Assembly (NCBI RefSeq): GCF_000621125.1
Contig: NZ_JHZC01000005.1
Span: forward strand, 186,001 to 250,000
DNA length: 64,000 bases
Reading direction: 5' to 3'
DNA from: Maribacter antarcticus DSM 21422
Lineage (GTDB): Bacteria; Bacteroidota; Bacteroidia; Flavobacteriales; Flavobacteriaceae
Shown: positions 963-5,922 of the stretch, piece after piece
How the letters are laid out: each line of letters begins with the position of its first letter
Position numbering within the stretch: position 1 is the first letter of the stretch
Notes under the pieces: generated by a model
Databases searched by the model: none
The model's input: only the letters and a program-made list of their open reading frames with translations
Told to the model about the DNA's origin: nothing
Position numbers and translations under genes: made by a program

Positions 963-3318
963 ATGCAAATAGAAAAGCATAATATACCGCAAAATAGTAG
1001 AATATTAAAGGATTATATTCCTCCGGTAATTACATTCTTTGTGGGTCTCATACTTTTATCTGTCTATCAAAATATAATACTTTATCTCACGGGTGTACTA
1101 GACAGCGTAGTGAACAAAAGTCTGTTCCTTAATAGTTTACATCATTTGGGTTATGCTGCAGTATGTTCCGTACTATTTGCGTTTTTATTTAATCTACTGG
1201 AAAATAAAAAATCGAATCTTGGTTTTAAGGTAATTCGTTTTATTTTCGCTGCCCTCCTTTTAATAGAGGGTCTCCTAATTACTTATTTTATTGGTAATTA
1301 GGAGCCATTGGGAGCTAATGGCCTATTCTGTAGCAATGCTGAACATATACAATTCAATATCCTAAATGCGTTTATAGCCATTTCGGTTACTTTGTTTACC
1401 TGCTATTTGTTATATCGATATACGGCTCCATTCTATAAAGTAATCAGTAGAATGTATCCGTTTACAATTATTTTATTCAGCATGTTTTTAGTGACTTTAT
1501 ATTACAATAGGAAGCCTATAAATGAAAACAAAACCTAACATCTTTTAGATGTTAGGTATACTGCTGTTTTTGATATAAACACTTATACGGGTAGCGAAGA
1601 ATATCTATTGGCCAGAGCGTATACTCCAAATAGCAATTTGATTCCCTATTTTAATCTTACGACCGAAAAAACCTCATATTAAAATACTTATTGTAGAAGG
1701 ACTTGGAACCCCCTTTATTAATGCAAAAGGAGCTTACAGCGGTATTATGCCTCGTTTAAAGAAAATGAGTGAATCATCTTTATACTGGCCAAATTTTTTA
1801 AGTAATACGGGAGAAAGTGAAGCGGCATTGGCGACAATTATCGGTTCCCTACCATTTGGCGAAACTGGCTTTACAAATATAGAGGGCTTTACCCATAGAC
1901 ATACTTTGTTTAGTATTTTAAAGCAAAACGGATATGAAACTTCCTTCAATTATGGTGGAAACAGTGCTTTAAATAGCTATGACCGATTTTTGGTAGAGGA
2001 AGGTGTAGATGAAATTTTAGATAAAACAGTTTTTGGAATAGCGTATAATTTGCAAAATGCCTGTGTAGCAGGAATTACCTTGGGCTATCCTGACGACGCA
2101 TTGTTTCGGCGCTACTCCGAAGAAAATAACACAGTGAATGAAAGGCCGCAGTTAACCGTATTTAAAATCTTAAGTACCAAGACTCCTTATGCCATACCGA
2201 ACTTTGGTAAATATGAAAAGAATGTTGATAAACTAATCAGTCATTCCACAAGCAACGAAAAGACCCAAAGGTTTATTTCACATAATGTAGAACTGTTTGC
2301 AAGTTATAGCTACGCAGATGAAGCTATTGCTCACTTTCTAAATGACGACAAGAAAACAAAGGCATACAAAAACACCATCTATATCATTACGGGAAGCCAT
2401 CTCAATCGGAATATCCCATCGGAAAATACGTTGAAACGTTATCAAGTACCACTTTTGATGTACCGCCCGTTACTAAAATCTACATCGAAAATAACAAAAC
2501 TTGCCTCACATACAGTTATCGCTCTGGCCATTATTTCATTGTTGGATAGGGCATATAGCTTAAAAGTACCAAAGACGGTAGCTTGGCTTGGGAATGGAGA
2601 ACTGGTTTCGAACGGAAATGACTTTAACAAGGAGATTCCATTATTCAGGGGAGCGAATAACATTAAGGATTATGTGCATCATTCTTTTTTCCTAATGGAT
2701 GGTGAGCTAATCGAGCTAAATGCTGACCTAAGCTTTACTGACAACGAGGTTCGGGATATAAAGATTGTTGATATCAAGAATCGCTTTAGCTATAGCAAAT
2801 CAGTCAACCAATATGTGACGCAAAACGATAAAATAATTCCTAGTACATTATCATCTGTAGCCAACGATAAACGGGAATTTTCCAAAACTGAAGCAATCTA
2901 GTTACAAAGTGTTTTTAACGGTAAGGATTTTGACGATGCCTATAAAACGGCAAGAAAACTAGCTTTTGATACGGATTGGGACAGGTCACTATTACTATGT
3001 GAACATATCTTAGGTAAAATACCACGCCATGCGGATACGGAAATTTTAAAAGGCCGTATCTATTCTTGGAAAGAAGAATACGATAAGTCAGTGAAGACCT
3101 TAAAAGAGGTGGTTAGAAAATACCCGGAATATACAGATGGATATTGTGCGCTTATGGATAGCGATTTTTGGACTAATCCGCAGAAAGACATACGTTCGCT
3201 TATACAACAAATAGAATAGCATCAGTTAAATGATGCGTTACTTATTGAGAAAATACAACGTGCAAGCAAACACGAGTTCATGTTAGACAACCCAACAGTT
3301 AAACGAGACATGCATTGA
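963..3318 (+). pseudogene. LTA-synthase-like sulfatase with C-terminal TPR region, broken
   Basis: The ATG at 963 opens an N-terminal membrane region of about five hydrophobic segments (963-1538), followed by a sulfatase/alkaline-phosphatase-superfamily domain from about 1670 (KILIVEGLGTPFI, then the SLLFATIIGS-like core, here SEAALATIIGSLPFG) and a TPR-like tail (about 2905-3315, with RIYSWKEEYDKSVKTLKEVV). In-frame stops occur at 1299-1301 (TAG), 1536-1538 (TAA), 2899-2901 (TAG) and 3217-3219 (TAG). One frameshift near 1660-1680 moves from frame 3 to frame 1. The final TGA (3316-3318) overlaps the next start, as in an intact operon. Such enzymes move phosphoglycerol-type groups or act on envelope glycans. 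The longest open piece is 1747-2901; the whole is judged a decaying gene. Confidence 0.75.
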
Positions 3319-4532
3319 AACTGACTCCACTATTCACAGCCGTTTTACTCCTGTTTTTCTTGACTAGCGTTACCGGTCAAGAGTATGCTTATACTGGAGA
3401 TTTGGATGCTTCTTACTTTACCGCGAGGGATTTAGCTTTTGAAGGAAAGCGCAGTGATGCACGAGATATTTTGATAGGTGTAGTTACACGGTATCCAGAA
3501 CATACAGATGTGCAGTGCCTTTTGGTAAAAATATATAGTTGGGATTAAGAATATGACCAAGCTAGAGCTCGATTTAATAGCATAACCAACAAGGAAAAAC
3601 GAAATAAGGAAGTTTGGATAGGTGCGATAAAAAACCAGCAATATGCAGATAAGTTGCATATTGGCTTGGGCTTGGGCAATAAAGCATTGATTTATGTAAA
3701 AGAAGATATGGATATTCTTGCCCTCAAAGCTGAAATAGTAAAGCAGATAGGAGATGCACACCTCTTACAGAACAAATTGAAAGTAACAAAAATAGTAGAA
3801 TAACGCAAGCAAGCTTTTACGATTTATACAGAAGGCGAAGTGTTCGATCAAGTTTTATATCCAATGTTCTATGGTGCTGTGGAATACAAAAAACAAACAA
3901 AATGGGGTGTTATTTTACAACGTATCAACTTTAATAGGTGTTTTAATATTAAAGGAGTACAAGCGGAAGTGGATGCCTATCCTAAAATTTATAAATCACT
4001 TAGTGGGTATTTTAATTATGGGTTTTCAACTTCAGAAATTTTTCCAAAACATAGAGTAGGGGCGGAAATGGTAAAAGAATTGCACAACGCCATGGAGGCA
4101 TCCTTAGGCTTTAGACACTTATCTTTTGTAGCAGATCAAGCAATTATTCTCACAGGTAGTTTTGGATTATACAGCGGTAACTATTATGTCTCCATTAGGC
4201 CCTTTGTTGTGCCCGATGGAGTGAAAGGGCTTGGAGTATCCGATAGTCTTTTGGTACGGCGTTACCTTAAAGATGGGAATAACTATTTGGGAATGAACCT
4301 AGGCAAAGGATTTGATACTGAAATGAATCAGTTTATCGTAGACAAAGAACTATTGACGTAAACTTTATTATTTTTAGAATCGAAACGGTTACGTTTTGAA
4401 GATCAGTTTACGACGACAAAAAATAGCAATCAATACAAAGCGAATGTTGGTATAAAACGCCAAGAACTCGCCTTTAGTTCTGGTAAATTCTTTTTATCGG
4501 TTATCGAAGGGCTATCCTATCAGGTTAAATTT
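3315..4532 (+). pseudogene. YaiO-family outer-membrane beta-barrel protein, broken by stops
   Basis: A signal peptide (LTPLFTAVLLLFFLTSVTGQ) is followed by TPR-like repeats (YFTARDLAFEGKRSDARDIL, then YSWD) and then a C-terminal barrel of alternating aromatic strands (VLYPMFYGAVEYKKQTKWG onward), the standard Bacteroidota YaiO layout. Three in-frame TAA codons interrupt it at 3546-3548, 3801-3803 and 4359-4361. No frameshift is needed: the same frame carries TPRs, barrel and the final strand ending in YQVKF near 4530. The TTG at 3315 overlaps the upstream stop. YaiO barrels are thought to take part in export or docking of envelope polysaccharide. The frame stays open past 4532 to a TAA near 4745, probably non-coding read-on. 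Confidence 0.75.
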
Positions 4533-4670
4533 CAGATAAGGCAACCAAGATTCTTACCACAGGTTATCCATTATGGTCTATTCACCCTAACGGGTATGAG
4601 TACTAATGAAATCAGTTACCAACTCCAATCGATACGTTTACAACAAAAACTAAGGGGTACACCACAATTA

Positions 4671-4702
4671 ATTGTACACAGCCTGTGTTTCTTTTATGTT
4701 TA
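4671..4702 (+). promoter_or_regulatory. Possible promoter for the microprotein pair
   Basis: ATTG at 4671-4674 and TATGTTTA at 4695-4702 are separated by 20 bases. This approximates the Bacteroidota pattern TTTG-N19-TAnnTTTG, with the last base of the -7 element not matching. A start about seven bases downstream would leave a leader of about 45 bases before the ATG at 4753. Confidence 0.3.
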
Positions 4703-4752
4703 CTGTGTAATTGAGCATTACCCAAATCTAATTACTAATCAATAAAGAATCC

Positions 4753-4851
4753 ATGCTTTACGACACCTACGGAGAGGAATATTTAGTGTTCCTTCAAGAT
4801 TTGAACGAAATTTTAAGCTTTAACGAATTAGCGGAATTGGATTATATGTAA
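4753..4851 (+). CDS. 32-residue microprotein, first of a paralogous pair
   Basis: ATG at 4753 to TAA at 4849-4851 encodes 32 acidic, Leu-rich residues. The core YLVFLQDLNEIL matches YQNFIQDLNDIL in the next small frame (4884-4985); a following F-N and a terminal L-x-Y also align. Shared sequence between two adjacent short frames is the main argument that both are translated. The peptide is acidic with an amphipathic helix-like core and no signal sequence or membrane segment. It sits after the decayed YaiO gene and before a strong terminator, and unlike its upstream neighbours it is intact. The family is not recognised and no function is assigned. Confidence 0.55.
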   Translation: MLYDTYGEEYLVFLQDLNEILSFNELAELDYM

Positions 4852-4883
4852 TCCTTTTTCCAATTAACCCAAAACCTTTAAAT

Positions 4884-4985
4884 ATGGCCTATCAAAACCA
4901 AGACAACAATTCATATCAAAATTTTATTCAAGACTTAAACGACATCCTTGTGGATTTCAATATTAGCAAGCTATCGTATTCTTAG
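4884..4985 (+). CDS. 33-residue microprotein, second of a paralogous pair
   Basis: ATG at 4884 (preceded by an A/T-rich leader, normal for this phylum) to TAG at 4983-4985 encodes 33 residues. The Gln/Asn-rich N-terminus leads into the shared core YQNFIQDLNDIL and a C-terminal FNISKLSY. The same Y-x-x-F-x-Q-D-L-N-x-I-L pattern occurs in the peptide at 4753, 32 bases upstream. The frame ends 15 bases before a 21-bp terminator hairpin, so the pair probably forms its own short transcript. No signal peptide is visible. Product unknown; possibilities include a small regulatory or interaction peptide. Confidence 0.55.
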   Translation: MAYQNQDNNSYQNFIQDLNDILVDFNISKLSYS

Positions 4986-4999
4986 TTTAGTGTTCAGTT

Positions 5000-5048
5000 T
5001 TTATAAAGAAAAAGCACCTTCGAAAAGAAGGTGCTTTTTCTTTATAAA
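5000..5048. terminator. Perfect 21-bp bidirectional hairpin terminator
   Basis: The arms 5000-5020 and 5028-5048 are perfect reverse complements with a 7-base loop. A runs on one side and T runs on the other allow it to end both the plus-strand microprotein transcript and the minus-strand rpoD transcript. Confidence 0.9.
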
Positions 5049-5058
5049 AACCTACGTG

Positions 5059-5922
5059 TTACCCTAAATAGGTCTTTAATAATTTACTTCTAGAATTATG
5101 TCTTAATTTACGAATGGCTTTTTCCCTTATTTGTCTTACGCGTTCTCGCGTAAGATCAAAGGTTTGACCTATTTCGGCTAAAGTCATAGACTGCTGGTCA
5201 CCAATACCATAATAGAGTTTTACCACATCTGCTTCTCTAGGGGATAAGGTATCCAATGCTCTATTAATTTCAGTGTTTAATGATTGTTGCAGTAGTTGAT
5301 TATCTGGTCTTGGTGATTCACCAGAACGCAACACGTCATAAAGATTTGAATCCTCTCCTTCACGCAATGGTGCATCCATAGAAACGTGTCTCCCTGAATT
5401 TTTTAAAGACTGTTTCACCTCGCTTACTGTCATTTCTAACTCAGTTGCTATTTCTTCAGCAGATGGTGGTCGCTCGTGTGCTTGTTCTAAATAAGAAAAT
5501 GTCTTTTTTATCTTATTTATAGAGCCAATTTTATTCAAGGGTAGACGTACCACACGGGACTGTTCTGCCAATGCTTGTAAAATAGACTGTCGTATCCACC
5601 ATACAGCATAAGAAATAAACTTGAAACCTCTAGTTTCATCAAAACGTTTGGCGGCTTTTACTAGTCCTAAATTACCTTCATTTATTAAATCGGGAAGCTT
5701 TAAGCCTTGGTTTTGATATTGTTTTGCCACGGATACCACGAACCTTAAGTTAGCAGTGGTTAATTTTTCCAATGCAATCTGGTCTCCCTTTCGTATACGT
5801 TGTGCTAATTCTACTTCTTCATTTGCGGTAATCAAATCTATTTTACTAATATCTTGCAGGTATTTGTCCAAGGACTTTGATTCACGATTCGTTACCTGCT
5901 TGATTATCTTTAGTTGCCTCAT
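5059..5922 (-). CDS. rpoD: Primary RNA polymerase sigma factor RpoD/SigA
   Basis: 287 residues, the short form typical of Bacteroidota primary sigma factors (E. coli RpoD is over 600 because of a long non-conserved insert missing here). Region 1.2 lies at the N-terminus. Region 2 is clear ([38 protein letters not shown]), which binds core and melts the -10-like element. Region 3 follows, and region 4.2 carries the helix-turn-helix ([20 protein letters not shown]). It directs core polymerase to the TTTG/TAnnTTTG promoters seen across this window. It is monocistronic, facing the microprotein genes across a shared terminator. Confidence 0.97.

Follow-up and report, generated by a model that had tools for sequence, protein, structure and literature searches.

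Introduction

In Csr/Rsm systems, non-coding RNAs (ncRNAs) such as CsrB and RsmY/Z carry several copies of a short GGA motif, which is mostly unpaired and is repeated in the leaders of the co-regulated mRNAs. Sibling small RNAs (sRNAs) of one response regulator, such as the CiaR csRNAs and Qrr, are present as several near-identical ncRNAs per genome with the same promoter type. The two-component regulons of AgrA, VirR, and YpdB are of the LytTR type. For LytTR response regulators, sites made of repeats of 9–11 nucleotides (nt) with a spacer of 11–13 nt are reported, the source describing a common geometry and no consensus (PMC4847170). In flavobacteria, Rfp18 and other sRNAs of Flavobacterium psychrophilum are described as ncRNAs with regulatory roles (PMC9723704). 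In the present study, these systems are compared with a pair of microprotein genes, ORF1 and ORF2, found in a 64,000 nt stretch of the genome of Maribacter antarcticus DSM 21422 (contig NZ_JHZC01000005.1, positions 186,001 to 250,000 of the forward strand; hereafter the window), and with other loci that have the same type of promoter.

It is proposed, with a probability of roughly 0.6, that the twin microproteins are outputs of a LytTR-type regulon, together with two types of ncRNA (A and B) and a third microprotein (C), in which an element common to leaders and ncRNAs would add a post-transcriptional layer. A search of the open-access literature, with subscription papers and preprints outside its scope, found nothing on the pair or the regulon.

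Results

A conserved tandem pair of microproteins

ORF1 (4753..4851, + strand) encodes an acidic microprotein of 32 amino acids with no lysine or arginine (MLYDTYGEEYLVFLQDLNEILSFNELAELDYM), and ORF2 (4884..4985, + strand) encodes one of 33 amino acids (MAYQNQDNNSYQNFIQDLNDILVDFNISKLSYS), a diverged tandem copy of the first. The original prediction, made from the sequence alone, described two intact adjacent short frames of these lengths sharing a 12-residue core that would be hard to explain by chance. Both frames are present, and the core, Y-x-x-F-x-Q-D-L-N-x-I-L, is exact in each of them. That chance is an unlikely explanation is borne out by the family profiles, which align ungapped over 24 columns (hhalign, 96.4 % probability, pairwise E 1.2e-9), and by hidden Markov models (HMMs) of ORF1 and ORF2, each of which recovers its twin (best E 1.6e-5 and 1.8e-4). 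The trailing F-N also claimed as common to the twins did not hold up. This likeness appears to be a coincidence, since the residues are offset by one position between the twins and the phenylalanine at position 23 of ORF1 is seen in this genome alone among 81 sequences, with I, L, or V in the rest. Judged by the alignments, the twins are conserved microproteins whose genes form a tandem duplicate.

Homologues and a synonymous bias in substitutions had been named as checks on the pair, and both were found. For substitution and motif counts, 164 regions were deduplicated to 122. Most of the variation in the alignments of both genes sits at third codon positions, with a mean entropy in ORF1 of 1.11 at third compared to 0.16 at second positions. 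The ratio of non-synonymous to synonymous differences (pN/pS) is 0.107 in frame for ORF1 (116 distinct sequences) against 0.80–2.24 in shifted frames, and 0.261 for ORF2 (107 distinct sequences) against 0.93–1.22. Judged by these patterns, both frames are real genes under purifying selection. No significant match to ORF1 or ORF2 was present in Pfam, NCBIfam, PHROGs, PADLOC, or PDB, the best E of 0.036 being far below the cut-off of its model. With homologues, synonymous bias, and no library match, the suggestion that the pair could represent a new small-protein family stands, as far as comparison of sequences can carry it.

The net charge of ORF1 is -8 in 96 of 116 sequences, 101 of which have no lysine or arginine. 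Neither twin is hydrophobic, with grand average of hydropathy (GRAVY) values of 0.03 and -0.65. AlphaFold predicts one helix over residues 2–31 of ORF1 (alignment of 21 close sequences) and a helix over residues 3–24 of ORF2 (alignment of 20), each with a mean predicted local distance difference test (pLDDT) score of 78. These models give weak evidence that the two acidic microproteins are mostly helical.

Distribution of the pair

In 299 Flavobacteriaceae genomes, ORF1 was found in 51 (E <= 3.1e-12, followed by a gap in the scores) and ORF2 in 48 (E <= 4.1e-13). In all 48 of the latter, ORF2 lies directly 3′ of ORF1 on the same contig and strand, with 22–63 bases between the matched ends. Within Maribacter, 35 of 36 genomes have ORF2, counting the genome studied here, and the single miss is a genome that is 64 % complete. 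Beyond this genus the pair is present in Arenibacter, Zobellia, Kriegella, Pricia, Flagellimonas/Allomuricauda, Croceivirga, Muriicola, Poritiphilus, and Cerina. ORF2 also follows ORF1 in 80/80 loci of a set of named genomes, 68 by pattern and 12 by eye; this set holds the best 80 of 245 confirmed ORF1 loci, chosen by conserved peptide patterns, and counts of invariance made on it are biased upward, those of the 299-genome searches less so. In the first 30 pair loci saved, ORF1 was found in all 30 and ORF2, by a strict pattern, in 29, the exception (L009) reading as ORF2 with one core residue changed.

Single relatives of ORF1, of 32 amino acids and in different surroundings, were present without ORF2 in three genomes (G092, G111, and G321). 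Two more genomes, G056 and G284, have weaker single relatives of this length (E 6.5e-4 and 0.012), likewise in different surroundings. In the distant single-copy relatives L142 and L143, the length of 32 amino acids is kept at 41 % identity. The simplest history would be one ancestral protein of 32 amino acids that was duplicated within one clade.

L142 and L143 are the most distant of the single-copy relatives (MLYQIYGVEY...) and their setting is common to the two genomes. The neighbouring genes are presumably mechanosensitive-channel-like and carboxypeptidase-regulatory-like, taken from the starts of the proteins.

A sample of the order gave matches in 7 of 246 genomes, six of them in Flavobacteriaceae, and no believed member outside the family; a sample of the phylum gave matches in 5 of 296, all in Flavobacteriaceae. 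The single hit in another family in these samples (E 0.004) contains an internal stop and was taken as chance. A search with ORF1 alone matched nothing in the phage or plasmid collections and gave no confirmed relative among viral contigs, which argues against a mobile or phage origin.

The promoter of the pair

Upstream of ORF1 on the + strand are two 9-nt repeats, TTTACAACA (4637..4645), which is a conserved core in an alignment of 50 promoters, and TACACCACA (4658..4666), which starts after a gap of 12 nt. They are followed by a TTG (4672..4674) within an ATTG, in conserved columns and with a presumed role as the -33 region, and by a -7-like box, TATGTTTAC (4695..4703). Across 122 distinct regions, the repeats TTYACAACA and TNCACCACA keep a 21 base pair (bp) register in 107/109, and a TAnnTTTAC box lies 34 bp after ACCACA in 108/111; the 11 regions that are off-pattern are five single-copy relatives and six with variant boxes. 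A 72-nt model of the promoter has one match in the window, at 4637–4705 (55.6 bits). The box resembles TAnnTTTG, reported as the sigma-A element of F. psychrophilum (PMC9723704), and the 9-nt repeats, 12-nt gap, and 21-bp register fall within the geometry of LytTR sites.

Other loci with this promoter

Further sites were found by the promoter model in nine Maribacter genomes (best E besides the pair 9.9e-7) and in seven genomes of other genera (7.2e-8). Behind promoters of the pair type is ncRNA A, a near-invariant 32-nt core, TTTTCATTTTCATATAGTGTTCTCGTAAAAGA, followed by a terminator, in one to five copies per genome; in M. antarcticus (G000) the core is at C2:735456-735487, C1:86559-86590, and C16:55943-55974, and it is also present in L260. 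The second type, ncRNA B, is a group of siblings starting GTAATTAAGTGATAGT that carry CCCAAATC and ACCTA elements and have their own promoters and terminators (L192, L226, L235, and L239). In some genomes these are in tandem, with three promoter units each in L257 (3050–3900) and L258 (1949–2780). Microprotein C has 33–35 amino acids, ends in ...VYxNDFxSG...KLFML, and has a promoter of the pair type and often the leader motif (L284–L293, and G000:C5:238945-239034). Ten regulon loci, including the ncRNA A loci L182 and L220 and the variant L238, gave no Rfam match at gathering thresholds.

For A and C, 30 loci were saved without regard to the promoter. In these 91,684 bases the promoter model was found at 26 loci at E < 0.05, namely at 16 of the 20 loci of A and at all 10 of C, and the remaining four show varied repeats by eye.

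A promoter site also lies between a gene for a REC-LytTR protein (Pfam, 8.5e-18) and one for a tetratricopeptide repeat (TPR) protein with a kinase-like H-box, a truncated protein in which Pfam shows TPR repeats only. A LytTR locus bearing the same site was thus found in L255 (E 1e-6) and L256 (E 5.6e-8). In M. antarcticus the orthologous REC-LytTR gene is at G000:C4:22573-23277. Other hits precede a hybrid histidine kinase gene (L190, L208, L231, and L237) or an extracytoplasmic function (ECF) sigma gene (L188, L206, and L241), those in L206 and L208 being weak. The H-box of the kinase-like protein and the naming of the hybrid kinases and ECF sigma factors come from reading of the protein sequences.

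Two candidate connections were rejected. A likeness of the microprotein core to the kinase N-terminus in L190 and L208 is not supported, as these proteins are absent from the best 27 matches of the ORF1 and ORF2 HMMs (down to E ~8–9). Likewise, ncRNA A might have been an anti-start-codon RNA, as its reverse complement holds ATGAAAATGAAAA; in the window, the 14-mer has one match compared to 3.4 expected.

Co-occurrence of ORF1, ORF2, A, and C was counted over the 299 family genomes. The core of A, with up to three mismatches, is present in 49 (reversed control 0), and C in 48 at E <= 7.6e-6, with two further weak hits (5.6e-4 and 6.3e-4). All 48 genomes with the pair have both A and C, and the sole genome with A outside this set is G092, which holds a single-copy relative of ORF1. 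In the genomes viewed, the sites of the pair, A, and C are far apart or on separate contigs (in G000, on C3, C5, and C1, C2, and C16).

The CCCAAAT leader motif

The leader of ORF1 contains CCCAAAT (4721..4727, + strand), with a mean unpaired probability of 0.87 compared to 0.59 overall, and the spacer between ORF1 and ORF2 contains CCCAAA (4868..4873, + strand). The former is the single CCCAAAT in the window outside frames of at least 90 amino acids. Of the ORF1 leaders, 78 of 122 contain CCCAAA, and so do 41 of the 117 spacers; shuffled sequences give 4.1 and 4.7. Among 42 other promoter loci saved at E up to 0.008, several of which are mutually orthologous, CCCAAA is within 160 nt downstream in 19, compared to none upstream and one antisense. 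In 12 distinct copies of ncRNA B there are one to three CCCAAA(T) per RNA, with a predicted unpaired probability of 0.79 against 0.53. A repeated motif, accessible in predicted folds, is therefore present in both ncRNAs and mRNA leaders, as in Csr/Rsm systems. The single-copy relatives L144–L146 have CCCAAAT just before the ATG although the promoter is absent, so the motif is tied to the gene as well as to the promoter.

Surroundings of the pair

The strong terminator noted just after the frames was confirmed as an intrinsic terminator at 4997..5051 (25-bp stem, -35.5 kcal/mol, z -10.4), between convergent genes. Because the hairpin is near-perfect, it is probably bidirectional and terminates the convergent sigma gene as well. 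At a permissive threshold, Rfam matches around it lie mostly on the hairpin, with none reaching its gathering score, and were taken as chance. The convergent gene (5059..5922, - strand), a conserved neighbour outside the pair transcript, encodes an RpoD-like sigma factor; in NCBIfam it is matched best by RpoD models, with scores under the cut-offs of these models. By tblastn it is present and convergent in 77 of the 80 named loci. In three Pricia loci an extra gene lies between the pair and the sigma gene, and around the five single-copy relatives L142–L146 and pair locus L149, where approximately 2 kb was read to either side, no sigma gene was found.

Upstream, at 1005–4532 of the window, is a broken operon of two genes that are long open frames in relatives. 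In the sulfatase-like gene, the match to relatives passes from one frame to another near 1657–1670, and the YaiO-like outer-membrane gene that follows is cut by several stops, which agrees with the earlier observation that the pair is intact beside a broken operon. Most likely the pair is its own transcription unit, since the genes upstream differ between genomes and are broken here.

Discussion

In the proposed regulon, a LytTR-type response regulator would bind the 9-nt repeats and turn on the whole set. The regulator would most likely be the REC-LytTR protein whose adjoining kinase gene bears the same site. CCCAAAT in the leaders, common to the sibling ncRNAs, may be recognised by one RNA-binding factor or by an antisense partner and so add post-transcriptional control. 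The twin peptides themselves may serve the signalling output as connectors or adaptors through binding to another protein, rather than being membrane toxins or enzymes; the kinase of this two-component system and RpoD would be the first candidates for such a protein.

As in the regulons of AgrA, VirR, and YpdB, the promoter is preceded by a pair of 9-nt repeats with a gap of 12 nt, and a REC-LytTR gene adjoins one that is kinase-like, where the site recurs. The present set differs in the repeat, TTYACMACA, in having a Bacteroidetes -33/-7 promoter, and in outputs that include microproteins and sibling ncRNAs; the sites are predicted ones. Near-identical ncRNAs with the same promoter type, several per genome, recall the CiaR csRNAs and Qrr, although here they are coupled to three microproteins, in another phylum and with no Rfam match. 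The likeness to Rfp18 and the other F. psychrophilum sRNAs is by description and not by sequence, and the terms LytTR and direct repeat are absent from the main text of that report (PMC9723704).

A number of observations weigh against this interpretation. The single-copy relatives L142–L146 have no promoter of this type before their frame, therefore the proteins are not tied to the promoter everywhere. CCCAAA is missing downstream of 23 of the 42 other promoters, nine of them of ncRNA A. In M. antarcticus itself, the site at the regulator-kinase locus (L261) is weak and in two pieces (E 0.004 and 0.02), and because the genome holds 22 matches to the regulator, itself included, it is ambiguous which LytTR regulator binds. 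The hits L183, L191, L222, L224, L227, and L234 precede ordinary genes or nothing recognised, and the lower-ranking promoter hits in this genome look mostly like chance. The 48 genomes with the pair probably form one clade, so that co-occurrence could be plain inheritance; it would show joint retention rather than many independent events. Lastly, the conserved position beside the rpoD-like gene could mean a different partner.

Such a partner would be RpoD itself, if the microproteins bound the product of the convergent gene as small anti-sigma or sigma-appropriating peptides. The linkage in 77 of 80 loci is suggestive and the charge of -8 in 96 of 116 ORF1 sequences fits binding of a basic surface. 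We nevertheless consider this quite unlikely: constant linkage, a soft expectation for an anti-sigma factor, is broken by the intervening gene in Pricia and the lack of a nearby sigma gene at L142–L146 and L149, the conserved promoter points to a regulon elsewhere, and the synteny is explained by shared inheritance. It is also unlikely that the transcript acts mainly as RNA, as a dual-function sRNA with the peptides as minor products. In favour of this are a short transcript closed by a strong terminator and a leader motif, common to ncRNA B, that is mostly unpaired in predicted folds, but selection acts on the amino acids of ORF1 (pN/pS and codon-position entropy above) and the 32-residue length persists in L142 and L143 despite 41 % identity.

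Tiny frames with a promoter type shared with ncRNAs might also suggest a small toxin or a type I toxin-antitoxin pair. This is highly improbable, as the twins are not hydrophobic peptides and ORF1 is strongly acidic, no PADLOC hit was obtained, searches of the phage, plasmid, and viral-contig collections yielded no relatives of ORF1, and the pair is near-universal in the genus and fixed in place, unlike typical mobile toxin-antitoxin genes. Attenuation of a downstream gene by leader peptides, an idea prompted by short frames adjoining a terminator, is scarcely tenable here: the gene past the terminator is the convergent sigma gene, with none downstream on the same strand to be attenuated, both protein sequences are conserved, and the frames contain no codon run of one amino acid.

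Going further than a LytTR-type regulon, the set may be a Csr/Rsm-like circuit in Bacteroidetes, in which tandem ncRNAs made under a LytTR two-component system, each with several CCCAAAT-N-ACCTA elements, would titrate a putative RNA-binding factor. The element would be read by this factor in the leaders of ORF1, ORF2, and C, and the microproteins would bind proteins of the signalling pathway and, as connectors, act back on it. This remains speculative and, as a whole, doubtful. As in CsrB and RsmY/Z, a mostly unpaired ncRNA motif is repeated in leaders of co-regulated mRNAs; however, the motif is CCCAAAT and not GGA, and the siblings are in tandem, each with its own promoter.

Most Bacteroidetes are not known to have Hfq or CsrA. 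Since flavobacteria are moreover reported to be without Shine-Dalgarno sequences (PMC9723704), the mode of action of flavobacterial small RNAs is an open question. The present analysis adds protein families of 32–35 amino acids, ORF1/ORF2, with no library match, and C, the libraries having been searched with ORF1 and ORF2. For the Flavobacteriaceae, it offers a bounded and testable set, comprising a candidate two-component system and a single promoter type along with ncRNAs A and B and the microproteins ORF1, ORF2, and C.
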